NCBI GenBank assembly: GCA_030141605.1
Contig: JAQGDQ010000331.1
Span: 1 to 64,000 of the forward strand
Length of the DNA: 64,000 bases
Direction: 5' to 3'
Source: Tubiluchus corallicola
Taxonomy: Eukaryota > Priapulida > Priapulimorpha > Priapulimorphida > Tubiluchidae
In this document: piece by piece, positions 47,201-64,000 of the stretch
Numbering within the stretch: position 1 is the first letter of the stretch
Layout: each line of letters opens with the position of its first letter
Notes under the pieces: generated by a model
Told to the model about the DNA's origin: nothing
What the model saw: only the letters and a program-made list of their open reading frames with translations
The model's database searches: none
Translations under genes and position numbers: made by a program

Positions 47201-50200
47201 AATCCTATTTTATCATAGCTATAACTGCATTATCACTGTAGTAACTGATGCATAACGGATATCGCTGCATGGTTAATTTAATAAATTTGTTATTCATTGT
47301 TGTTAGAATGTCTGCCATGCAAAAACATATGAATGAGAAGAAAATAAGTCTCGTGTAAGGAATAAATTGTTGTGCGTGCAATAAAATATCTGCTAACATT
47401 ATTAATAATTATTTTGGAACAGCAAAGAATTTGTTCATAAGAGACACATTAGTAATGTTTTAGAGTCATTGAAACAGATGTACTAGCCCCACCTTCCTTC
47501 CTGTATATGCAGCAAAATAATATCATGTTGACAAAAGGTGTAACAGTAGGACAGAGTTTATAATGCTTATTGATGAACAAAGTCACAAAAAGGAGGTATA
47601 AAGAGCTCTGCATACTGCTGATATTATAGTCAACTTACAGAATAAAGTATTATAAAAACAGTGCAAAATTATTTGCTACTTGACAGACTCATTTTTGGAA
47701 TAAGGTAAAAATTAGATTAAGCCGTCTACACTACTACACGATGTACAATGAAACAATTTTGTAACTAAAAGGAGAGCAGTATGCTTTGGGTAACACCATT
47801 TTTGGAGGTTGGCATTTTGAACTAGTGCACTGAAACAGTTGATTCTACCTGAGACAAATAGCCTATAAATCTGGTCACCAGGAGCAATATAAAATCGCGA
47901 AGTATGCTCTTCGGAAATCAATCAAGTCTGCCAAACATGATTTTAAAAACAAATTGGCGCAAGACTTTTTGTCTAATGACACTCGAGAACTTTGGCAAGG
48001 ACTTAATAAAATTATGAATTACAAACCAAAATCAAAACATATTAACTTAGACGACCCAACTTTACCGGATAAATTGAATAATTTTTATAGTCGTTTTGAT
48101 AAAGAAACGGGACCATTATTAAATTATTTGAATAGGTCCACTTGCAATAACACTCCATCTCTTGTTATACAAGAAAATGATGTGCGGCGATAGTTTGCCA
48201 AACTGAAAATTAAAAAATCAGCAGGACCGGATCGTATAACACCGTGGCACGTGCGATACTGCTCAGATCAACCTTGCCTATATTTTTACTCATAATTATA
48301 ATTGGTCTTTAAGCATTTGTAAATTCCCTATACAGTTTAAGCAATCTATCATTATTCCTATGCCAAAGAGAAACCCAATTACTACACTTAATGACTATAG
48401 ACCTGTGGCTTTAACATCAGTGTTAAGCAAAACACTAGAACGTTTGATCTTACATTTCCTGAAATCTGTTGTTTCACCATTTTTGGACCCATTTTAATTT
48501 TCATATCGTGCTAATCGTCCCACAGATGATGCTGTAGGGCTTGTTGTTCATGATGTACTAATGGACCTTGATAAACGTAATTGTTATTCCAGAATCCTTT
48601 TTGTTGATTTCAGTTCAGCTTTGTCACACATCCTGCAACTAAAATTGTAGTATAAAATGACGGAACTTAACATACTTGACTGGCTGTGTAATGGAAACAC
48701 TACCATTTTTTCAACTAAGGTTGTTAATACAGGAGCTTCGCAAGGGTGTGTCCTGTCTCCAATTCTATACAAGTTTTTTATATATGACTGTGACGTATCT
48801 TCCCCAAATACTGTGATGGTAAAATTCGCTGATGATACCACACTGGCTGGCCTTATTTGCAGTAACAACGAGACTAATTATTTTCAGGAAGTTCAAAATT
48901 TAACACGATGGTGCAAACAGCATAATTTAGAACTGAATGTTTCAAAAATAAAAGAAATTATCGTAGATTTTAGAAAAGAGACTGATGGAAAAGCACCTTT
49001 GCTTATAAATAATACATCTGTACAAATTGTTAAGGATTTCAAATTTCTGGTAATAAAAATTTCGGATGATCTTAAATGAGAAGCTAATGTACTCTGTTGT
49101 GTAAAAAAGGCCCGCCAGCGTTTGTACTTTTTAAATCATTTAACAGTGCCCCTGCTGTGATGGAGAGTTTTTATCGTACAGTAATTGAAAGCGTCTTAAC
49201 AACATCCCTCACTGTTTGGTATGGTGCTACCACACAGGGAGATCGCAATGCTCTTGATCAAGTTGTTAAATGTTGTTAAACACATAGGGTGAATTTATTT
49301 CTTTGCATTTTTTTTATTTTTTCAGCACTATTTTATTATTTTATGAATTTATCTCTGCAATATATTGCAGCTGTGAAACAACACTGTTAAATTTTACAAA
49401 TCTAAAACTCTCCTGCATAACCATCTTCATCTGGAGAGGACATCACATGCAATGAAACAATCAGCTGTTGGTTTCGTCAACTGCTTTTTTTATGCTTGCT
49501 AATTCCGTCTTGATAAAATATAATTAAATGCTTTGGTTAACACTTAAGGATTTTTCTTTATTAAAGCAAAAGAATGGATGTTATACATCCACAGAACAAA
49601 GATTTCACATACGTATTTTATCTATTCCAGTTTTGTGTTCCTAAAGGATTTTGCATCACTGTTGCTGCATACAAATATCATCTAGAAGAGAATCAAGAAT
49701 TAGTGCAGTCTATTCATCAACTGCATGAGGTTGCGACGTGAGTGAATGCATTAATTATTAAAACTGTCTGTTGGAAAATCCCTTAAAAATTTTAATCAAT
49801 TTTCACTGTAAATTTACTGCAAATTTTAATTCTTGTTGCTAATTTTTTGTTAAATGTTTGCTTAAGAAAACAAAGATGTGGTAATTTGAACGAGATGTCA
49901 AAGAAAGTGTCAGAAATGTTTCAACAGAGCAGTATGAGCAATGTTTTAAAAGATGCTCTTGCATTAGAAATGGAGCAACAGTTTGGTGAAAATTGGAATC
50001 ACTTAAAAGTCGCTGTGAGATCCTCTGCTGTAGGTAAGATATCATCGTTATGCATAGCTCAAAATGATTCATGACCTAAAATATTATAAGGATGAGAACA
50101 TTTTAAGAATGATGTACATTAAAGAATGACTCTCTCGAAAGTTTAAGTTTGTTCATTCTTCATTGTAGCATGCTCATCTATACATACTCATCTATACATT

Positions 50201-53200: not shown

Positions 53201-56200
53201 ATGTTACAGAGAGCAATATATATAAGTTAGCCTATTCCCAACTTAGAAGCAGTACGCAGAGACCGTGTAGACGTGTAGAATGTATGCGCATTACTGATCA
53301 GTGGTGGATGGATCTAATAGTGTTTGCCTAAGCACACAGTGGTGACATTGTGCAAAATGTTTTTGTGCACTTTATTATGCTGTTGTTAGCTGTGTTGTTG
53401 CTGTGATGTCGTCGACAGTAAATTATAATACATTCTTCTGTAGAAATCATGGTCAACCAGTTGCAGCAGACATGGGAGTTTGTATACAAGAAATGGTAAA
53501 TGCTGACAGTGCAGGTGTTTTGTTTACTAGAGATCCAGTTACTGGCAATCCTGGAATTATGACAATAAATGTATCCTATGGACTTGGAGAAGTAAGTACA
53601 CATTTACGGGTACATCAAAGAAAGCATAGCATCAGGCAAAGCAGTAAAAAAAATACAATCGTTTTTCTTGGAAAAAACACTTTTGATTCAAAACTCCAGT
53701 GTGAGCTGACTTGTCGGCATTTCCTAGCACAGTAATTTATTTCAATAATTGAAATCTAATGAAATAAGTGTAATCTAAATTTATAGGTGGAGAATGGCTT
53801 GTGAAATGCCTTTGCTAATGCGACTTAACCTTAGGTAATGGTTTTGAGTTCAAGAGTAATAAACTAGTAATTGACTTAATAACTCAATTTATTTCAAAAG
53901 GTGATCATGATTTGATATTTTGACGATTTGTGATTGTGTGTATTTTCTGATTCAAGGCTGTTGTGTCTGGGATTGTTGAGCCAGATACCATCACACTGGA
54001 GAGAAGCTTCAATAATAAACTTTCTGTAAAAGACAAAGTTGTTGGAAGCAAGAAAGCTCAACTTGTTCTTTCAGGTGAGCTATTGAAAATTTATACATAA
54101 CAAAATCTATTTATATATCCGCATTCTCTGAATTTTCCTTATAAAATTAAAACTTGTCTTAATTGTGACAGGCTTGGGTGGTATGGTATGCAAGACACTG
54201 ACTAATTATGTAATGGTTTAGCACTAAAATTCAAATTCAATTCAAATTAGTTTGAAATAACTTAACAGACAACTTTATTTAGATTTTACCTGTTTAAGCA
54301 GGATTATGCAACCTGCGCTGAAGTATACCAGGTTTTGCAATAAATGACTAACTGTAAAGCTACGTTGATATGACTTTCTATGTCAATATTTGATGGTGCA
54401 TTGGTATTTTTTATCTTAGACTCTGGTGGGATTAAAGAAGTAACTACTGCCAATGAGGCTGCTGATTGTTGTCTGAGTGATAAATTAGCCTTGCAACTAG
54501 GAGAAACTGGCATATTAGTAAATATCACCTTTATGGCTATTTTGTATGTTACCTTTACAAAAATAAAAAGTATTTTAAATAAAATACGTTAAAATTACCT
54601 TAAAATAACTTTAGTTGTCATCAGTCTTTTGTCTTATTTTACTTTATGTGAAATGTTTACTTAAATACTCTGAATACTTAAAGAGCTGGAATTTTGAGAT
54701 AATATTTTAAAACAGTGCTTGTTCACCTTAAATAAATGGTTCAATGCCCAATTTCTGAAAAGATTGCTGCCTTTCATAGTGCTTTAACAGCCCTACTTAA
54801 GTGGATCTTGTCACAATTCTTAAAACTTTGTGAGCTTGTGCTTTTTCCAAGATGAGTAATATATAATTGAAATATAATTGGAAATTTGACTTGTAATTTG
54901 AAAATTCAACTTTTCAGATTGAGCAGTCTTTCTCCGACCCTCGAGACATTGAGTTTGCCATCAAAGATGATGAGATCTATCTTCTGCAAGCTCGGCCTAT
55001 CACATCATTTAATACAGAATCTGATGATGAACTCATTCATGAATTTGATGGACCAGTTATCATGGAACAAGAAATGTTTACCACTGCTAATACTGGGTAG
55101 GAATTTAATATTTGCCTTAGTATATTATATGCTACTCAATGCTATTCTGTTGCCTTTACTTTTTCACATTTTTCCTTTGAAAATTTAACAAACTTTTACA
55201 AGATATTTTTAGAGTGCATGAACTATAAAAAATGGCTGTAAAAATGAAAGCTGAAGAACTCTCATTTCTACTGCATAATTTCGTAAATCGAAACATAATG
55301 CTGTTTCATGGCCTTGATAACGAGTTACGTTCTGGTGTGAGAGTTGCTGGATTCCGACTTGCAGAATTGTCAATTGAGCAATCAGTATGTAACGTAACAA
55401 GCTTTGTAGAGCTGTAGCTGTTTATCACTTGCTACATTAAACAAGTAATTTTGTTGAAATACATTGCTGCAGCACATATTAAAAATATTTTGCTCGCTTC
55501 TAACCTGAATGCATGTATTATTGTTTGTTTTTAGAGAAATGATGCCACAGGCAATGACTCCATTAACAGTGGACATTTTTATAGGAACACTTGGTGGAAT
55601 TGGGCAGGTAAGCAAAAAACACGTTGCAGTTCACGTAATTTGTATATTAAAATTTACTCATTTCCGTATTTATATTATTTTTGTTCATTTACTTTTTCAC
55701 TTTTGCTACTGATTAAAAGCTTTTAAGCATCAACAGCTTTGGCTACAAGAAATAATTAAAATTTATGATTTGAAAATATCAGTTTTAAGATAGAAATAAA
55801 CTAGTTGTTCGTGAAAGGAAGACAGGATGATTTGCCACATACCCCATTTTCAAGTCCAATAAAAAGTATGCATTTTAACATGATTAATACTGCAAAAGCA
55901 TTTCTGATAATTAAATAATAAGTTAAAAATTTAATTGATGGGCGAGCCCAACTATTGATGACATCACAAACTAACATTATTCTCAGCAGCAAAAATATTC
56001 TACGAGCGTGTTGCACATGTTGGTGAAAGCGAAAATTGTAGTACAGTGTTACTGTAAAATATTCAATGTGTTGTACTAAAACTAGGCAGATAGGCGGATG
56101 TTTTAAGATACCGCTGTGCTCACGCATGAGCTGTCGAATGTGCGTAGTTCATCAGAAACTAACACATCTGAACTGAGAAGTACAGCATCTGTTTTTTTGT

Positions 56201-59200
56201 AATGCGTTTCCGAAGTGCAAGCGCTAGTGCCCATCTAACTAGCAAATGGTGAAATGCATGTAACAGCGAAGAACTAGTGCCGCAAACTCGAACTTTTGTT
56301 TGTGTGGTAATAATTCTTTTACGCAAGTCATTTTTGAAAAAATAGTGTGTTCCCTTTCAATATTTTAAAGACTAGATTGTTTTGACCTACGGTTTAAGAT
56401 TGGGTCCGGTTTTGCTTGAAACAACACGTTTGAAGCGCACTGCTAGCAATGTTCATGAATGCTAGTATGAATATCAAAGTACAAACCCAGCATGTTTTAT
56501 GATACATAGTTATTTAAACCCACTAAAAAATTGATTGCTTAGTTGTAGTTGTACAGTTTTGTGGTACAGTAAATTAATCTAAACCTCAAAAATTTCACCT
56601 AGCACCATTCAGGATAACTTGTACAATATTATAATTTTTTTACATAAACTTTGAAACATTGGAAGGTGAATAAAATTTAGTTGCTAAAAATACTAAATGT
56701 TTAATACTAGGTCCAATTTTCAGTTTAGAGAAACTACAATTGTTTTGGGGATTTAAGGTTGTGGCAGTTTTAGGTCACTAGCATATCTTTGCCTTTTGAG
56801 CGGCCCATTTCTGATGTCTACTAAAACTATAATCTGTTTTATAGAGTCTGTTTATGCCTATTTGATTTTTTTTGCCTTCTTAGTCATAATTTGATTTTAA
56901 TAATGATGCGATGATTCTACATTTATGTTAAATAGCTTGAAATGCAACAGATGTCTGCATTTATGTGGCCTTGTCATATACCTCAGTATGCACCAGCACA
57001 GAGTTATCACTTCTTTATAAATGTTATATCAGTAAGTTAAAAGGTTAACTTTAAATGTTAGTTGTTTTTTGACTTATATTTTAGTGTGTTTAGTCCTTCA
57101 GCCTTGTCAGTAAACAGTTTATTCCACTGGAGTATTTCTTTTTTGTTAAGCAAATACTTTCTGCATTTTCACTGCAGTACTGGTCCAAAAGTAATTGGTC
57201 AGAAATTCAGTACTGCAGAAAAAACATATGACACTAGAATAAATGTAGAATCATCAGCATATTTAATGATGTTTATTATTTACAACGTCAAAATGTGGTG
57301 CACTTCTGCTGGTCATTAAAATCACTTATAATTTGGTTTATGGTGTTGACTTTGTTCTTGATTAGTCTAATTTGCTTTTCCCTTACAATTTGATTTTAAA
57401 ACTCAGTCGATGATTCTACATTTATGTTAAATAGCTTGAAATGCAACAGATGTCTGCATTTATGTGGCCTTGTCATATACCTCAGTATTTACCTGCACAG
57501 AGTTGCCACTTCTTTATAAATGTTATATCAGTAAGTTAAAGGTTAACTTTAAATGTTAGTTGTTCTTTAGTGTGTTTAGTCCTTCAGCCTTTTCAATAAG
57601 CGGTTTATTCCACTGGTGTATTTCTTTTTTGTCAAGCAAATACTTTTTGCATTTTCACTACAGTACTGGTCCAAAAGTAATTGGTCAAAAATTCAGTACT
57701 GCAGAAAAAAAGCATGTGGCACTAGAATAAATGTAGAATCATCACCATATTTAATGATGTTTATTATTTACAATGTCAAAGTGTGGTCCACTTCTGCTGG
57801 TCAGTAAAATCATTTTTAATTTGGTTTATGGTGTTGACTTTGTTTTTGACTAGTCTATTTTGGTTTTTCATTACAATTTCATTTTAAAACTCAGTCGATG
57901 ATTCTACATTTATGTTGAACAGCTTCAACAGCAACAGATGTCTGCATTTATGTGGCCTTGTCATATACCTATGCAAGGACTTTCTTGTAGTTGCCACTTC
58001 TTTATAAATGCTTTATCAGTAAGTCACAACTTAAGAAGTAATTGATGTACATTTTTGTGCATTTATTTTTGGTGATTTTTATTGAAAGATTTTGCCGCAG
58101 TGGCAATTTTTGTCTTAATCAAATGCCCTTCTGCTATTTTTTCAAGAATTCCTGTACTACAGTGAAAAAGCTTTAATTGTGCTGCAGTGTAAGCTTTATG
58201 ATGCTAGTATAAATGTAGAATCATCACTGTATTTGTGCTGCCTACAAAGAAAAATTTGCTTAAACTCATTTGCTATGCAGCTTTGTGATACAAAAGTGGA
58301 ATTATTACAGGTAAAGTTTTCACTTACGATTATACTTGTTTTTATGATGATTCTACATTTACATTAATTACACAGTTTCAACGGCGACGTATTTTTGGCT
58401 CTGTGTGGCCGTGCTATGTGCCTATGATTTTACCTGCTTACTGTGGCCATTTTTTTGCTAACTGCTTTCTAGTAAGTCTTACTGGTGTTTTCCAAAAAGG
58501 TAAATGTGTTTTATCCAACGTTTAAAAAACTTCAGACAAACTCATATTCTGAACATATGAAATTTTAGATCTGCAATTTTTTCTTAGAATGTTGCAAAGT
58601 TACTAAATGTTCTGTTCTTGCTATTGTTATGTGCAATTTGATTTCTGTGAAATCAGAAAATGGTAGAAGTCAGGCATTTGTTGTATATCTAGGAAAAAAT
58701 AAATTATTCCAAGCAGACATAGTTTAGAAAATTGGAAACGTCCCTACAGTGGAGTATGCAACAGCATAATTTTTTGGATAACCCCCACTGCATTCTTGCC
58801 TCTGGAGAAGTGATAATCAATGCTGTAATATCCTCCATCTTTAGATTTGAAGTTTTTTAAACGTTTTATCTTGAGAATCATACTTGCTGTGATTTGTGTT
58901 CGTTAGGTCATTTATCTGTTATTGATAAACATGCTCTTTGTGCACTCTTTTGCTTGTCTTCAGTATGTAATTGTTTTTGTCAAACGTTAAACTGCAAATT
59001 GTGCTGTTAGTTCAAATTCGTGTAAAAATCAAAGGTTCAGTCTTCACAAAGCTCTGCTTTCTCGTTATTTAGCCCCATGCAGTGAGATTTGGGAGTTGGG
59101 GCTGAAACCATCTCTCTGTTCAGTCTGTCTGAAAAAGATATAGCTAGATAAAGACTAACCATATTGAGTAAATGTGTGCGTGGGTGTATGTGATTGCTTC

Positions 59201-62200
59201 TTTTATTGCTGTGATTAGTCATTTAATTTATTGTTGTAGAGAATGATGTTTATGATGTTTGTTTTATACATGATGCATACATGTGTTTTTGCATGGGTGT
59301 ATGTGTGTACTTTATAACAATGCGAATTTGAGAAACTTGAACAGCCCTGTTGATGGGAAATGTTACCTTTAGGAATAACTTGCATAATCAAGGGATGTGT
59401 TTCTTGCTAATTTTCCATTCTTCAATCTGTGAACAAATGTTATTTGAAAAACTTGAAAAAAATGTAAGATGCTAGGTGGCTGAGTAAGTTTCAGTCAGAA
59501 TTAAACATTAAAAGCCACTAAGACACAAAGCAAAAGCTATTTTTATATATGATTCTGGCATTTGTGTGACCAATGATTATAGTGAAGAGAGGTGATGCCA
59601 ACACCCAAGAAAAAAAGACATGCTTGTTTCAACTACAAACATCAATGTAGAATCATCACTGTTGATAAATCTGTATCGTTGTTGCACAGTCACTTATTGA
59701 TAGGGCTTTAAATAATTTTGTAGCTACGTGTAATTGCATTGACATATATTACTAGGCAATGCACGAAAAGTTTGCTGGATTTCGTATGCCAAGCTATTCA
59801 CCAATTGCCTTTGCTTCTTATAGTGGTCACTTTCTGATCAATATGCTTAATGTAAGTTCATCATAGTTATCAATTTTTATATTTGTAACCAATACTACAG
59901 GTCACCCAGATGTTTGCAGTTTTGGCATTTTGTTTGAAACTACTGTTGCATACATGATAAATGTGCCATTTTTTATAATTATTAAGGATACCATTTTACC
60001 ATTCTAATAGGCATTTTATTGTGTGATTTCTTAAGAATGGGGCTTCTGTTGTACATTACATTGTTTGTTTGTAGAAACAGCAATTCTCTGTGAAAGAGTT
60101 CGTTTGTGTTACATCACATGCATGCTTGAACGAAGAGATTTTGCGTGATCAGCAAAAATTACTTTTTGCAATTATTCTTTTTTTAGTTACGAAATTTAAT
60201 TTTTAATTTTTTCTAAATTTGACACTAAATTGAGTATATACATTGGTTTCAATATACCATGCCTTTTTTCATTAATGGACAAATAAAGTTCACTGTTTAC
60301 GCATTGACTGATTACTTCAATATTGGATTACCACTAAAAATACACAGTACACTTAAGCAGCATTCTGTTACCAGTATAATGAATTTCACTTTCATTTTTG
60401 TGTTATCAAAACTACTAATACAGATTTGTGAAGCACTGAACCTTTTCATTTGTATCTTATTCTATGTTTGAAAGTAGAAGTAGAATTTGTGAATAATAAT
60501 ATAAAAGTGATGTAAGTTATTTTTGAACTGTTCTTTATCTAACAGTATGAACTGGTCACTTCAATAAAGCTTCTTCATAAGTTCTATTTGCATTAATCAC
60601 TATTATTAACAGTTATGGTTTGTACCAATATTTATCTTTCACGGTTCTTTTTCTTGCTTTTTTGCAAATTGTTTAATTGTGCAACTGAGACAATTTTTAG
60701 AAAATATACTTTGTTAACATACTATATGATGACTTAAATTGTATTTACTTGTAAATATTAAATGTTTTATTAATGGGAGTTGCAATAATGTTAATTTTCA
60801 TACATTTTGTTACTTTAGTAAAGGAAGTTTTCTGGCTTAATGAGTAATTTAAAGGGTGCTATTGATTGAACTGCTAATGAATCACTTGTTAATGATAATA
60901 CATGAAATAACTCTTGTGTTACTTAGTAATCACTTTTACGATACTGCAAAAATTCGAAAGTAATTAAACTGAGTATGCTGCATTAATAATATTTTTTATA
61001 TCTGCAACTCATTAACAATGATACTGTATATTTGCTCACTCAAAATTCATTCGCATGTAGGGTCTGTATTATATGAATGAATATACTATGCTTGGTGCAA
61101 CAGTTGCTTCATCTCGAGTGTACATGGAAATGATATTGTTTGGCAGACGTTTGGATGACTCCATAGAGGATATCATTATACATCGTTTTAAAGACACGTA
61201 CGTGCCTTTATGGCGGAAAGTTCGATCATGGATTCATGTGATGAGTGTATGCCATATTAAATTATCATGATATATAATAAGTTTTTAAAAACTAAATAAA
61301 ATGCTAATATTGTTGGGCTGAGTTGCTTCGTTTTCTGCTTAACAGATGTTTTCAAACTATGCAATAGACATTTTAAGTACAATCTACATGAATGATTCTT
61401 TATTAAATCATTATCGGCTTTGTTAAATCCACGGTAAGTAAGTTTTAGGGCTTTTTGTAAAGCTGTCTTATTGTAAAGCTATTTTTTACTTTTTCTATAG
61501 TTGCTGGTATACAGAATTTATTCTCATCTTCTTCGTAATTTCTATTTAAATGTAAAATAATGTTTCTACTTGTTGTATAGTCACCTAAGTATTTACTGCC
61601 AGGTGAGTATTGCTCATTCCTTCGAGTAGAATAAAGTAAGAATTAAAAATAGGTGATCGATAATTACGATATATAGGAGGGTGACCGGTTGTGTTATATC
61701 AGTGACGATTCTGGTATGTATAAATATAATTTTTTGAAGTTTATTTTTAACTACATCTTTGATATGCTGATACGTCGAGTATCATATCAGGTGGATTTAA
61801 TTATCACCATCTTTATTGGCACTTGATAAGGGAAAGGGAAACCCATTGTAAGGTAAAAAGCTCACATTTTCATACGTCTACAAATGTCTTCTTATTACAG
61901 AACAAGAGAATAAAACCTTGTTGGTGCATTATCTTATCATAATGTTGATTATTAGTATTTATTAAGCTACATATAGTAAAATGTAATTGCTTTAATTATA
62001 ACACAAGATAATGTAGCATGTTGTAAGCAAAAAGTTGTCATAGTAAGTCTGTTTAAGTGACTGAACTAGACTAAATGGTTTAAGCAGATACACAATGTAA
62101 TAGTGAAGTTTCTTATTGTGTGCTTGCTAGAAGCTTCTTATTTAGCAAATGCTGTTATGAAACATTCGTTGTGAAAGCGGGGTTGTGTCAATAATTTTTT

Positions 62201-64000
62201 AATGTAATTTAATTGTTTTATTAATTATATATTAATTTAATAATTAATAATAATATAGTAAAGTTGGGAATCAGTAACCATAAAAGCATGATTTTAGTGA
62301 GCTTATTATTGTTTTGAAATTATTGTCATCTTTTATAATGATTCAGCAGTAGAATTTGGTTGAAGATCTTGATTTGTCACAGACTCCCGAAAAATTATTT
62401 GTTTTAGATAACACAGTAAAAGGATCAGATTAACTACAGAATCAAATAAAATCTTTTTATTAAAAGGAAAAGATTGATTGAATTTACAAATATGCTTTGG
62501 CTTTTTCCGAAGTATAACTGGAATTCCTTGCCACCAAATGTTACTCATCATGCTCGTTCAGTTGCTCAGAAGGATTATATCGTTGATGGAAACTAGTACG
62601 TGCATTTCTCTGATATTATTTTATTCTGAATTTTATTCAGAATCTACAAATTGTGTATATTTTGTGTAACTATAGTTGTGTAAACTCATAAGTAAATGTT
62701 TAAAATTGTTCTCAATGTTATGTTAATTATTTAATTATGGTAATATGTACCGTTCTGTAGTGATAATAGTTTTCATTCTGTAGACAATGTGGGAAACAAC
62801 TGTTCTCAGTCTTGGTTAAAGCGTTTTTCACAGTAGACAAAGAATCCAAAGTGACATCTTAAATAATTAATGCCTGTTCTATTCACTTATCTTTGGGATA
62901 ATAATGATTCTTACATTCTACCTGGTAGTGTGAAGTGAGTGAGGGCCCATGTTCACAAACCATCACTAAATTAATGATATCGTTATCAATAGTTAACTGA
63001 TGGCTTTGCGAAACTAGCCTCAGCAAACATCAGGAATTTGTTAATGGTGATTTAACTAACCAGTGAGTGTATTTGACAGAAAAACAATTCTTCGTGTACA
63101 AGAATCGTTGGAAAGAATATGTCGAATATTTCAAATAGGAACGAAAAAAGAATTCTAAGGCAACTTTCTTAATACATAAACTTCATTTCTGTAATTACTT
63201 ACCTAAAATGTTCATGTGTGTTTTAAAGGAACAGCCTAAGAGTGACTAAAGGTTTAAAAGTTTGGTAGCACTGATTACACTTCTGGTTTCTGTTTTTTTC
63301 AAAGTTATATGATTATGGACTTTCTTGCTAAAAACACCAACAACTGCTCATATTAAAATTTATTATGTATGCAACAGTAGACCATTTAAACTTTAAAGCT
63401 TCCAAAATTATTTGTAAAAATATGATGATGAGCCTAATGTAATTTGCTTTGATATTTTTTGTAAAATGAGTATTTTAAATATTCTTTTCCACTCTTGTTT
63501 TTTTGTTAACTTTTCCATAATTTTATTTTAGAGTTTACTGTAGTCATGTGTGAAATACGTATACACTATTTGCAAAATATTGCAATTTTGTTATTATAGT
63601 AGTGAATACGATAAAAATAATAGATTAGTTGCATAAGTTATTTACCTATTTGTCCTAACTAATTTATATTGTTGTTTCCTTTTAATAGCATCTAGCTATT
63701 TTTACATAGGCCATGTATGAGGGGAATAGTGATACATTGCCTATTGACACTAAGGCAGTAAGGGTATCGATGGAAATGTCTCTTTTTGGGCGCACATTAG
63801 ATGATGATGTTTCAGACCTTGTCAAGCAGCGATATAAGGCAACTTATGTACCAAAGTGGAAACAATATAAAGTATTGGTTTTTATGTATGCTGTAGGTAT
63901 ACATTTATTATTTTAAATGTTTTGTTTCTGCAAATTAAAGAAGTATTGAATTTGTGTTTATGATGAGGTATTTTCTTTGACTATAAACTTGCTGCTATGT
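38434..64000 (+). CDS. PEP-synthase-like / PPDK_N-domain protein, 3' end beyond window
   Basis: Constitutive exons: 38434-38569, 39100-39266, 39737-39826, 40241-40407, 41517-41585, 41740-41859, 42554-42719, 43012-43064, 43376-43509, 43614-43761, 44162-44220, 46984-47099, 49631-49737, 49867-50033, 50237-50307, 50648-50712, 53444-53591, 53957-54074, 54420-54517, 54918-55096, 55535-55607. Together they read 817 codons without a stop; all junctions are GT-AG with matching phase. Duplicated exons follow (56936-59851; 61061-61246 and 63710-63892). Residues 1-45 contain a long hydrophobic segment, about 46-436 an unrecognised part, and about 455-762 the ATP-grasp PPDK_N domain. In PEP synthase and rifampicin phosphotransferase this domain binds ATP and passes phosphate to a swivelling histidine domain, here outside the window. 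The start ATG (acaATGg) is preceded by an in-frame TGA at 38365. The substrate is unknown; PEP synthesis should not be assumed. Confidence 0.88.
40645..40966. mobile_element. 322-bp hAT-type MITE with perfect 8-bp target duplication
   Basis: Starts CAGTGGTTCCCAAACTT and ends TACTTTGGGAACCACTG, the classic hAT terminal repeat pair. ATTTAAAG flanks both ends exactly (40637-40644 and 40967-40974). It lacks a transposase ORF. It sits in the intron between exons 40241-40407 and 41517-41585 of the PEP-synthase-like gene. Confidence 0.93.
41137..41221. repeat. Long (TA)n/(CA)n microsatellite
   Basis: Several TA runs separated by CATGCA and TTGGACA, ending in CACACA. ORFs made of Ile/Tyr on both strands here are artefacts of the repeat. 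Confidence 0.95.
42010..42180. repeat. Possible retroelement tail
   Basis: GATTAGATTAGATTTATTA is followed by a low-complexity, A-rich stretch. It resembles the ends of some retroelements, but there is no second copy in the window. Confidence 0.2.
42222..42291 (+). pseudogene. Relic tandem duplicate of exon 42554-42719
   Basis: About 60 nt match the start of the real exon, including its 3' splice site: TATTAG/TGAAAAC here, TACTAG/TGAAAAC there. Both contain GAACAATGG, ATGCT.TTAGG and ATTACTATAGCAAG. Spliced from exon 41740-41859 in the same phase it would read NENCGRHEQWKMLLGNITIA (real exon NENNSRYEQWGMLLGSITIA) and then hit TGA at 42289. Similarity stops near 42281. It is a dead duplicate exon, or less likely a poison exon. 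Confidence 0.8.
44838..44925. repeat. Imperfect ATC/GTT trinucleotide repeat
   Basis: Runs of TCATCATCATC mixed with GTTATCGT and GTCACTGTT units in the intron between exons 44162-44220 and 46984-47099. Confidence 0.8.
45245..46095. repeat. Diverged minisatellite-like array with AAAATGGC cores
   Basis: A core close to TTCAAAATGGCTGACAAG recurs near 45250, 45557, 45705, 45880 and 46025, spaced about 145-175 bp where adjacent. The core is often followed by TAGCTGCT/TAGCTTGTT-like sequence and AACCATATCTTAA. The units are too diverged for exact boundaries. It fills part of the 2.8-kb intron before exon 46984-47099. Confidence 0.6.
46984..55096 (+). CDS. PPDK_N ATP-grasp domain (9 exons)
   Basis: Numbering from the ATG at 38434: VGGKG at 459-463 (nucleotide-binding Lys), RSSAVGEDSAEASFAGQ from 562 (the RSS arginine that contacts phosphates), IQEMVNADSAGVLFTRDPVTG ending at 646 (written in parts: VNADSAGV then FTRDPVTG), YGLGEAVVSGIVEPDT from 657, and LLQARPIT ending at 762 (ATP-binding Gln and Arg). 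All hallmark residues of a working ATP-grasp module in PEP synthase and rifampicin phosphotransferase are present, and the length of about 308 residues is normal. So the enzyme half in this window is predicted to be active. Two large introns inside it carry a broken retrotransposon (47868-49290) and simple repeats. Confidence 0.93.
47868..49290 (+). mobile_element. Broken non-LTR retrotransposon, reverse-transcriptase part
   Basis: Interrupted reading frames give the pre-RT linker (FKNKLAQDF, LWQGLNKIMNY), the RT start (KKSAGPDRITPWH), QGCVLSPILY, the catalytic FADDTTLAG box near 48830, and the following NLTRWCKQHNLELNVSKIKE. There are several stops and frameshifts and no endonuclease, so it is 5'-truncated and dead. 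The motifs fit the CR1/L2/jockey-like group. It lies in the intron between exons 46984-47099 and 49631-49737 and has not disturbed either splice site. It is a different family from the fragment at 7040-8390, as far as the non-overlapping parts allow. Confidence 0.85.
52028..52105. repeat. (TA)n, (CA)n and (GA)n microsatellite
   Basis: A TA run, then CGCACGCACGCATGCACACAC, then TA and AGAGAGA. Overlapping ORFs on both strands are repeat artefacts. Confidence 0.9.
52682..52880. repeat. Dispersed repeat, direct copy of 9957-10145
   Basis: Same order of blocks as 9957-10145, ending TTTGCAAAACTTGTACTCCTTA. The neighbouring 52550-52625 also resembles 10605-10680, but there it lies on the opposite side of the main block. 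Confidence 0.6.
56910..56925 (+). promoter_or_regulatory. Intronic element T1 (before V1)
   Basis: GATGATTCTACATTTA, ending 10 nt before exon V1, so it overlaps the likely branch-point and pyrimidine region. It is exactly complementary over 16 nt to the A1, A2 and A3 elements. Confidence 0.85.
56936..57031 (+). CDS. Variant exon V1 (96 nt, phase 0-0)
   Basis: First of five homologous exons. It joins exon 55535-55607 (ending GTLGGIGQ) without a frame change. It reads LEMQQMSAFMWPCHIPQ then a tail with HFFINVIS. Acceptor TTAAATAG, donor GTAAGT. If only one variant is used, it encodes residues 818-849. It differs from V2 at only two residues. Confidence 0.85.
57172..57218 (+). promoter_or_regulatory. 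Intronic hairpin after V1
   Basis: CTGCAGTACTG (57172-57182) and CAGTACTGCAG (57208-57218) are perfect complements with a 25-nt loop, 22 nt upstream of A1. The copy after V2 (57658-57704) has one mismatch. It may shape the intron or simply be part of the duplicated unit. Confidence 0.55.
57240..57255 (+). promoter_or_regulatory. Intronic element A1 (after V1)
   Basis: TAAATGTAGAATCATC, the exact reverse complement of the T element. It lies 208 nt after V1 and 153 nt before T2, so it can pair with T1 (looping out V1) or T2 (a hairpin within the intron), among others. Confidence 0.85.
57409..57424 (+). promoter_or_regulatory. Intronic element T2 (before V2)
   Basis: Same 16 nt as T1, again ending exactly 10 nt before the exon. 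It is preceded by ACTCAGTC. Confidence 0.85.
57435..57530 (+). CDS. Variant exon V2 (96 nt, phase 0-0)
   Basis: Nearly identical to V1: the Y-A-P-A-Q-S-Y stretch becomes Y-L-P-A-Q-S-C. Acceptor and donor are the same as in V1. The surrounding intron is also copied, so V1 and V2 arose by a recent tandem duplication of a unit of about 490-500 bp. Confidence 0.85.
57728..57743 (+). promoter_or_regulatory. Intronic element A2 (after V2)
   Basis: Same 16 nt as A1, 197 nt after V2. Exact complement of all four T elements. Confidence 0.85.
57897..57912 (+). promoter_or_regulatory. Intronic element T3 (before V3)
   Basis: Same 16 nt as T1 and T2, ending 10 nt before exon V3. Confidence 0.85.
57923..58018 (+). 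CDS. Variant exon V3 (96 nt, phase 0-0)
   Basis: Keeps the QQMSAFMWPCHIP core and the HFFIN end, but has a different middle (MQGLSCSC). Acceptor TTGAACAG, donor GTAAGT. The intron copies upstream and downstream remain recognisable. No stop or frameshift, so it has been kept as coding sequence since duplication. Confidence 0.85.
58210..58225 (+). promoter_or_regulatory. Intronic element A3 (after V3)
   Basis: Same 16 nt as A1, although the rest of this intron is strongly diverged from the introns after V1 and V2. With T4 it can form 17 continuous pairs. Confidence 0.85.
58346..58361 (+). promoter_or_regulatory. Intronic element T4 (before V4)
   Basis: Same 16 nt as T1-T3, ending 14 nt before V4, in an intron otherwise unlike the others. 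Its survival there argues for a function. Confidence 0.85.
58376..58471 (+). CDS. Variant exon V4 (96 nt, phase 0-0)
   Basis: More diverged (FQRRRIFGSVWPCYVPM, then HFFANCFL) but still exactly 96 nt and open. WPC, P and HFF.N positions are shared with V1-V3. Acceptor TTACACAG, donor GTAAGT. The flanking introns have lost most similarity to those of V1-V3 except for the short complementary elements at 58210-58225, 58346-58361 and 59642-59657. Confidence 0.8.
59642..59657 (+). promoter_or_regulatory. Intronic element A4 (after V4, before V5)
   Basis: TCAATGTAGAATCATC, 15 of 16 positions as in A1-A3. It lies 1.17 kb after V4 and 98 nt before V5. It can pair with T4 over 15 nt. Confidence 0.75.
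59756..59851 (+). CDS. Variant exon V5 (96 nt, phase 0-0)
   Basis: The most distant copy (AMHEKFAGFRMPSYSP, then GHFLINMLN). It shares the exact length, phase, a mid-exon proline and the HF.IN end. Acceptor TTACTAG, donor GTAAGT. It lacks the 16-nt element that precedes V1-V4. My recollection of relatives in other animals is that this segment also contains an HLFIN-like motif, so V5 may be the ancestral or default exon; this needs an alignment. Confidence 0.8.
59852..61060. other. Intron between V5 and W1, nothing recognised
   Basis: AT-rich sequence. No further copy of the V exons or of the T or A elements was found by eye. Confidence 0.4.
61061..61246 (+). CDS. Variant exon W1 (186 nt, phase 0-0)
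   Basis: Follows the V exons in frame. It reads GLYYMNEYTMLG, then RVYMEMILFGRRLDDSIED and a FKDTYVPLWRKV end. Acceptor GCATGTAG; donor GTATGC, chosen so that its end aligns with W2. It is homologous to 63710-63892 over its whole length. With one V exon it would end at residue 911. It continues the segment after the ATP-grasp domain. Confidence 0.8.
61346..61433 (+). other. Candidate exon or dead exon after W1
   Basis: Acceptor TTCTGCTTAACAG and donor GTAAGT (61434) bound 88 nt. In the phase left by W1 it reads MFSNYAIDILSTIYMNDSLL and then meets TAA at 61424. It could be a decayed variant exon, a poison exon, or chance. Confidence 0.25.
62513..62595 (+). other. Candidate unassigned exon
   Basis: A pyrimidine-rich stretch ending CCGAAG and a strong donor GTACGT (62596) bound 83 nt, open in phase 0 (YNWNSLPPNVTHHARSVAQK...). 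The sequence looks protein-like but matches nothing I recognise, and its end phase does not fit W2. Confidence 0.25.
63710..63892 (+). CDS. Variant exon W2 (183 nt, phase 0-0)
   Basis: Reads AMYEGNSDTLP, then VRVSMEMSLFGRTLDDDVSD and YKATYVPKWKQYK. Shared with W1 in register: V..MEM.LFGR.LDD and TYVP.W. It is one codon shorter, with the same phases. Acceptor TTTACATAG, donor GTAGGT. It is either an alternative to W1 or an added repeat; more copies may follow beyond the window. Confidence 0.8.

Follow-up and report, generated by a model that had tools for sequence, protein, structure and literature searches.

Alternating complementary intronic elements around a tandem array of candidate alternative exons in a dikinase gene of Tubiluchus corallicola

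The stretch of DNA analyzed here (the window) comprises 64,000 nucleotides of the priapulid Tubiluchus corallicola, positions 1 to 64,000 of contig JAQGDQ010000331.1 in assembly GCA_030141605.1, with a G+C content of 33%. It carries part of a gene for a predicted dikinase, spanning about 46.98 to 82.14 kb as judged by eye and extending past the window, in which five homologous exons, V1 to V5, follow one another in tandem. The introns around these exons hold two 16-nt elements that are reverse complements of each other, T and A. In this work we have analyzed the arrangement of T and A, the signs of selection on their complementarity and the possibility that their pairing in the transcript governs the choice of the V exon.

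The gene and its V exons

The exons upstream of the V array encode the ATP-grasp domain PPDK_N (E 4.7e-81). A hand-assembled isoform of 922 residues has been found to match 5fbs, which is RPH from Listeria (PMC12167813, PMC4844700), at both ends (6-328 and 596-901, E 1.3e-89), and it keeps the sequence TELGGLLSH, fitting the swivel motif T/SXXGGXXXH (PMC12167813). Both the ATP-grasp domain and the swivel domain with a catalytic His motif, the hallmarks of PPDK_N/PEP-synthase-like dikinases, are present. The score with the rifamycin phosphotransferase model NF041857 (381.8 bits against a cut-off of 999) marks the protein as a relative and not a member of that family, and the PEP-synthase subfamily model gives 417.1 bits against a cut-off of 945. 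The predicted product is an animal RPH/PEP-synthase-like dikinase; it shares the ATP-grasp and swivel ends with the known enzymes and differs from them in being encoded by an animal gene with candidate alternative exons in its central domain. The genome has 118 homeobox matches (150 of the 186 candidates scored), pointing to an animal. Among the open-licence literature matches listed, there was no animal RPH/PEP-synthase gene with exon arrays.

In RPH the central part (residues 327-754) is the second-substrate domain, and the pocket residues of RPH-Lm include Tyr351-Ala357 and Val368 (PMC4844700). Comparison of the central domain of the predicted dikinase with PDB by sequence gave no matches up to E 10, and a shorter piece matched only the end of the ATP-grasp domain (E 0.45). 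An archaeal relative, aligned both to 5fbs (E 4e-9) and to the isoforms, places the V segment at about RPH-Lm residues 358-363. By this weak alignment, in a variable region, the V segment would lie between Tyr351-Ala357 and Val368 in the second-substrate domain.

Coordinates of the exons and of the T and A elements are collected in Table 1. V1 to V5 all have open reading, are in phase, and are preceded by AG and followed by a GTAAGT donor. Homology by tblastn is clear among V1-V4 and weak for V5 (E 0.015 at best); the five form a tandem-duplicated cluster of homologous exons that agree in length and phase and have kept their splice sites. The V exon would be joined to exon C, which encodes EMMPQAMTPLTVDIFIGTLGGIGQ. 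Since all V exons have the same length and phase, two of them could be spliced into one transcript without a frameshift, and exclusivity is not imposed by the reading frame. Between V1 and V2 five bases in three codons are different; four of these bases belong to the two codons whose amino acid is altered (A to L and Y to C), a pattern that hints at diversifying change.

A tandem dikinase paralogue is located on the same contig (matches at 98.2-112.7 kb). By eye it has one V-like exon of about 99 nt (L004 8789-8887), ending in FINMLN where V5 ends in FLINMLN; tblastn with the V queries found no convincing match in the paralogue region. Because the end of this single exon resembles that of V5, V5 is probably the ancestral copy, with V1-V4 added upstream later.

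Table 1 Positions of exons and intronic elements (D array in contig coordinates)
Feature	Position	Strand	Remarks
Exon C	55535-55607	+	upstream exon; tblastn and splice sites
T1	56910-56925	+	pattern search, 16/16
Exon V1	56936-57031	+	96 nt, phase 0-0
A1	57240-57255	-	pattern search, 16/16
T2	57409-57424	+	pattern search, 16/16
Exon V2	57435-57530	+	96 nt, phase 0-0
A2	57728-57743	-	pattern search, 16/16
T3	57897-57912	+	pattern search, 16/16
Exon V3	57923-58018	+	96 nt, phase 0-0
A3	58210-58225	-	pattern search, 16/16
T4	58346-58361	+	pattern search, 16/16
Exon V4	58376-58471	+	96 nt, phase 0-0; tblastn and splice sites
A4	59642-59657	-	15/16; 98 nt upstream of V5
Exon V5	59756-59851	+	96 nt, phase 0-0; without T; tblastn and splice sites
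Exon B1	61061-61246	+	downstream exon; 186 nt, phase 0-0; tblastn and splice sites
Exon B2	63710-63892		183 nt, phase 0-0; homologous to B1
Exon D1	67176-67263		88 nt; D1-D3 homologous
Exon D2	68557-68644		88 nt
Exon D3	71256-71343		88 nt

The T and A elements

The 16-mer T, GATGATTCTACATTTA, is present in four perfect copies, and its reverse complement A in four, of which A1-A3 are exact and A4 has one mismatch. The elements strictly alternate around V1-V4 in the order T1-V1-A1-T2-V2-A2-T3-V3-A3-T4-V4-A4-V5, leaving V5 as the sole V exon without a T. The distances from T to the acceptor are 10, 10, 10 and 14 nt for V1-V4, and those from the preceding donor to A are 208, 197, 191 and 1170 nt for A1-A4. 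An earlier reading of this stretch from its letters alone, the sequence-only reading, had described this order of complementary 16-mers and a spacing of 10-14 nt between T and the acceptors, and both descriptions hold. A match to the yUnAy motif lies 41 nt upstream of the AG of V1, with counterparts seen by eye before V2 and V3, and is a likely candidate branch point; pairing of T with A would therefore occupy the interval from the branch point to the acceptor.

With up to two mismatches allowed, the T/A pattern has 8 matches in the window against 0.12 expected, a count reached in 0 of 100 shuffles. Exact copies number seven in the whole genome (343,548,820 bases), all of them in the array, while a backwards control pattern gave none; at up to one mismatch there are 39 against 16 for the control, eight being the array and the other 31 scattered over 29 other contigs. 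In 124 kb of the contig T/A is the only non-simple 12-mer family with at least two copies per strand inside 6 kb. At a word length of 11 (k=11) all families in the V region belong to T/A except one, local to the repeat units U1 and U2 (57172, 57208, 57694), and no second distinct complementary set of the bidirectional (srp) type was found there.

The longest exact inverted repeat in each of U1, U2 and U3 is 17 bp, compared with shuffle maxima of 12, 13 and 13; none of 300 shuffles reached 17 in any of the three. In U4 the longest one (18 bp, 58517-58534 with 58848-58865) is other than T/A, so that this test is silent on T4-A4. This 18-bp repeat lies in the V4-V5 intron and might bring T4 and A4 effectively closer together.

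Not all copies count equally as evidence. A recent duplication has left U1 and U2 90% identical over 401 bases, and the two are not independent; there is likeness too between the 60-nt stretches that precede T2 and T3 (88%, with 75% for shuffled sequence). Hence it is T4, A3 and A4 that carry independent evidence. Among exact words of at least 10 nt, the only ones common to introns 2 and 3 are A, at 19 nt, and T, at 16 nt; introns 3 and 4 have A (19 nt) and one 10-mer, and for introns 2 and 4 the longest is A (16 nt). A shared word of 19 nt was reached in 0 of 1000 dinucleotide shuffles for introns 2 and 3 and likewise for introns 3 and 4. Gapped global identity of the intron pieces is uninformative, since with the scoring scheme applied even shuffled pieces reach values of about 65-78%. 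Had gene conversion been at work, longer stretches in common would be expected. The survival of T4, A3 and A4 in introns that have otherwise diverged, on which the sequence-only reading had based its argument for selection, is thus borne out.

We conclude that the T/A array is more than a product of chance or of recent duplication. Since T and A have been kept in introns otherwise sharing almost no 10-mers, they look selected, and complementarity is the sole evident property common to the two; selection on T-A pairing is therefore well supported by these comparisons. Moreover, had each T needed to fit its own A alone, the diverged units could have changed in step; they have not done so, which suggests that every T must fit every A.

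Predicted pairing and alternative explanations

That any T can pair with any A had been proposed before, and the computed energies agree. The helix has 16 base pairs in twelve of the 16 possible T-A combinations and 15 in the four that involve A4; the duplexes have energies of -19.7 kcal/mol with A1-A3 and -18.1 kcal/mol with A4. We consider it fairly probable that V1-V5 are tandem-duplicated alternative exons chosen through pairing of the intronic T and A elements in RNA. The arrangement suggests that the RNA picks one V exon by letting the tags pair with one another in different registers.

By occupying the sequence immediately before an acceptor, a T-A helix would hide the V exon concerned. 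Two kinds of neighbour helix may be envisaged: T_i with A_i would loop V_i out, and A_(i-1) with T_i would close V_i off from the side of the intron. With the elements in alternation and four T's facing three near A's, neighbour pairing with A1-A3 alone would leave one T over, marking the included exon. For a chosen exon V_k the V exons before it would be looped out by T_i-A_i helices and the later ones as far as V4 would be closed off by A_(i-1)-T_i helices, the chosen exon being the site at which the pairing register shifts. A4 is mismatched and would be transcribed 1.2 kb after V4, just upstream of V5; should it pair as well, all four T's would be bound and the T-less V5 would be used. Four T and four A elements allow five neighbour-paired states, a number equal to that of the V exons. 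We infer pairing in cells, masking of acceptors, mutual exclusivity, the leave-one-out rule and the role of A4 from these features. More tentatively, the array could act as a leave-one-out selector, an alternating chain of tag and anti-tag in which a register shift leaves one acceptor free and the late, mismatched A4 serves as a timer defaulting to V5. Such a selector would, again as a speculative proposal, invert the docking-selector rule, with one element free and the rest paired in place of one paired and the rest free.

Two kinds of calculation bear on this scheme. In the partition function of 56850-59870 all eight elements are paired with a probability of at least 0.92. When A4 is left out (56850-58700) neighbour pairs dominate, T1-A1 (0.72) or A1-T2 (0.28) together with A2-T3 (0.84) and A3-T4 (0.83), and T2 or T1 is left over. 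The eight elements have 143 non-crossing pairings, which were enumerated in a coarse model over a sweep of helix energies and loop penalties chosen by us. Without A4, at least 0.96 of the ensemble leaves exactly one T unpaired once the helix energy is -12 kcal/mol or below; with A4 included, at least 0.97 of it has every T paired once the energy is -16 kcal/mol or below, and in the range between, states with none and with one T unpaired are mixed. The earlier proposal that V5 is the default fits the models in which A4 pairs.

Several results weigh against exon choice by T-A pairing, or against the form given to it here. The skipping of V5 when one of V1-V4 is used has no explanation in the model. 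Folding of the region had been named as a check on the array; all elements do pair, and the registers in the full-length fold are mixed (T1-A1 0.64, T3-A3 0.91) and include non-neighbour pairs (T4-A2 0.91, T2-A4 0.64), without a clean register. The coarse model depends on the chosen parameters and its one-free-T rule fails at -10 kcal/mol. The left-over T varies with the model, being T2 in the fold without A4 and T1 in the coarse enumeration (0.68 without A4), and in that fold the 26-nt stretch preceding V2 has an unpaired probability of only 0.22. Scrambling of A1-A3 raises the modelled accessibility of the acceptors only from 0.12-0.32 to 0.28-0.48, and that of V4 is not raised in one of three such scrambles. 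Introns 2 and 4 also share one 12-mer and two 10-mers unrelated to T/A, and the 16-nt T shared by introns 0 and 3 was reached in 2 of 1000 dinucleotide shuffles. Finally, T and A are invariant, so that covariation, the usual proof of pairing, neither supports nor refutes it in a single genome.

The best surviving alternative, which we still regard as unlikely, is an ordinary docking-selector or bidirectional mechanism, in which one A (e.g. A4) or one T docks, its partners activate the neighbouring exon and the remaining elements are by-products of unit duplication. It has the advantage of being the known mechanism for insect exon arrays (PMC6071210), and A4 lies near V5 and T1 near the upstream-exon side of the array. 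Four T and four A elements are nevertheless found where several selectors for one docking site would be expected; T4, A3 and A4 have been kept although, with only one docking site in use, further arms of that type could be dispensed with, and pairing of T, so near the acceptor, would more likely block than help. In 55608-61060 no separate docking site for T stands out: beyond A1-A4 the best partners reach -12.2 (58296), -10.7 (56144) and -10.4 kcal/mol (59842), compared with -13.5 kcal/mol in a control stretch elsewhere in the gene (73810-79262). The view that both partners have been multiplied, in contrast to Dscam, is in line with this lack of a lone docking site above the control. The weaker T partner at 58296-58317 lies shortly upstream of T4 and may be due to chance. 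The best partner of A beyond T1-T4 gives -13.8 kcal/mol (59544), a value that has no control of its own. Masking of the V5 donor by T was also considered, this donor being the best of 18 (-10.4 kcal/mol, 0 of 200 shuffles), and was dropped as unremarkable against the control stretch; in the donor list C, V1-V5, B1 and B2 are placed at the donor and the other ten are off by 1-3 bases.

A neutral origin, in which the duplicated unit happened to carry an inverted repeat and the exons are chosen otherwise or have partly decayed, appears improbable. The recent duplication seen in U1 and U2 can by itself explain T1-T3, A1 and A2. It does not account for T4, A3 and A4 as islands in diverged introns, for the 17-bp inverted repeats that no shuffle of U1-U3 reproduced, or for the retention of frame and splice sites in all five exons.

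Flanking inverted repeats are a route to circular RNA, and V1-V4 each lie between complementary introns that could drive back-splicing. We give this explanation little credit: T is so near the acceptor that its pairing would cover the very site needed for back-splicing, and the helices are of 16-17 bp. Slightly less credible again is the idea that T and A are protein binding sites, or that T is a conserved part of the acceptor, with complementarity incidental. T is indeed located where splicing factors bind, but separate protein binding gives no reason for an exact 16-nt reverse complement to be kept in both. Nor does T form a strong polypyrimidine tract (10 of the 17 positions before the V1-V4 acceptors are pyrimidines, the longest run being 4), and V5 manages without it; pyrimidine-poor tracts are not special to the T-bearing exons, as the count before V5 and B1 is no higher (9 of 17). 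In the acceptor table used, V1-V5, B1, B2 and C are placed correctly and ten rows, marked noAG, are off by at least one base. An Rfam scan of 55600-61100 had no matches at the gathering score. The outline T-V-A resembles a mobile element with 16-bp inverted ends that carries an exon, an origin we practically dismiss: the unit DNA has three matches in the genome, all at this locus, with no copies elsewhere, and by eye no target-site duplication lies beside T or A, so neither the dispersed copies nor the duplications of a DNA transposon are seen.

Further arrays, known systems and significance

Downstream of the V exons the same domain may contain a second alternative pair, B1 and B2, and possibly a third array, D1-D3. 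If all three arrays were exclusive, 5 x 2 x 3 = 30 isoforms would be possible. Families resembling T/A were absent from the B and D arrays (k=11, at least two copies against one, simple words excluded). In the paralogue region nine such words were found at k=11, most of them spread over kilobases and two forming one near-palindrome, and we take them as chance; at 102000-104000 of that region the best partners of T and A give -9.7 and -10.1 kcal/mol, and no T/A elements are present. A degenerate stretch resembling a LINE-type (long interspersed nuclear element) reverse transcriptase was noticed by eye at about 47900-49280 of the window, in an intron of the gene.

Competing RNA pairings are an accepted mechanism for insect Dscam and other arrays (PMC6071210, PMC8042237, PMC11802352, PMC9013439), known either with one docking site and many selectors or with two sets in the bidirectional form (PMC6071210). 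As in exon 6 of insect Dscam, where a selector lies upstream of each variable exon (PMC6071210, PMC11802352), tandem homologous exons are accompanied here by competing complementary intronic elements. In Dscam exon 6, however, one docking site serves many selectors and the paired exon is used, whereas in the V array T and A have each been multiplied and take turns along the sequence, T lies close to the acceptors, and the exon used would be the unpaired one. The bidirectional clusters of srp, RIC-3, MRP1 and some Dscam arrays likewise have complementary elements on both sides and a choice of register (PMC6071210), yet they employ two different element pairs, while one pair serves the whole V array. 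Intronic elements also compete in human ATE1, where R1-R5 make exons 7a and 7b mutually exclusive and polymerase speed matters; that system has two exons and few distinct elements in place of a repeated alternating array (PMC11802352).

A further precedent is the stem duplication model of Ivanov and Pervouchine (2018), in which duplication of an exon with intronic stem arms creates competing structures (PMC6071210). One stem arm is duplicated in that model and both are duplicated here; the locus looks like a whole-stem version of the arm-duplication idea. In the same article, flanking introns of fly and human arrays tend to pair with internal ones, and internal introns showed no tendency to pair with each other (p 0.45), which makes an array with both arms in internal introns unusual. 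No alternating array of the T/A kind was found among the open-licence literature matches listed, and the kind of mechanism is known, with the T/A variant apparently new.

Docking-selector pairing explains the skipping of upstream exons, and something more is needed for the downstream ones; the exact limitation of arrays of near-equal exons to a single exon has been only partly explained so far (PMC6071210). If the proposed choice by T-A pairing is true, an alternating many-to-many array would handle both upstream and downstream exons, up to V4, with one sequence pair. It would also explain why the arms have not diverged: they could not do so because every T must fit every A. Control of exon arrays by RNA pairing may extend beyond insects, since the homeobox matches indicate an animal and the arthropod cuticle family PF00379 has no match in the genome, a weak indication given that 14 controls also had none. 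For the dikinase itself the choice of the V exon could change what the enzyme acts on, because part of the second-substrate domain of this antibiotic-phosphotransferase-like protein appears to be encoded by the V exons.

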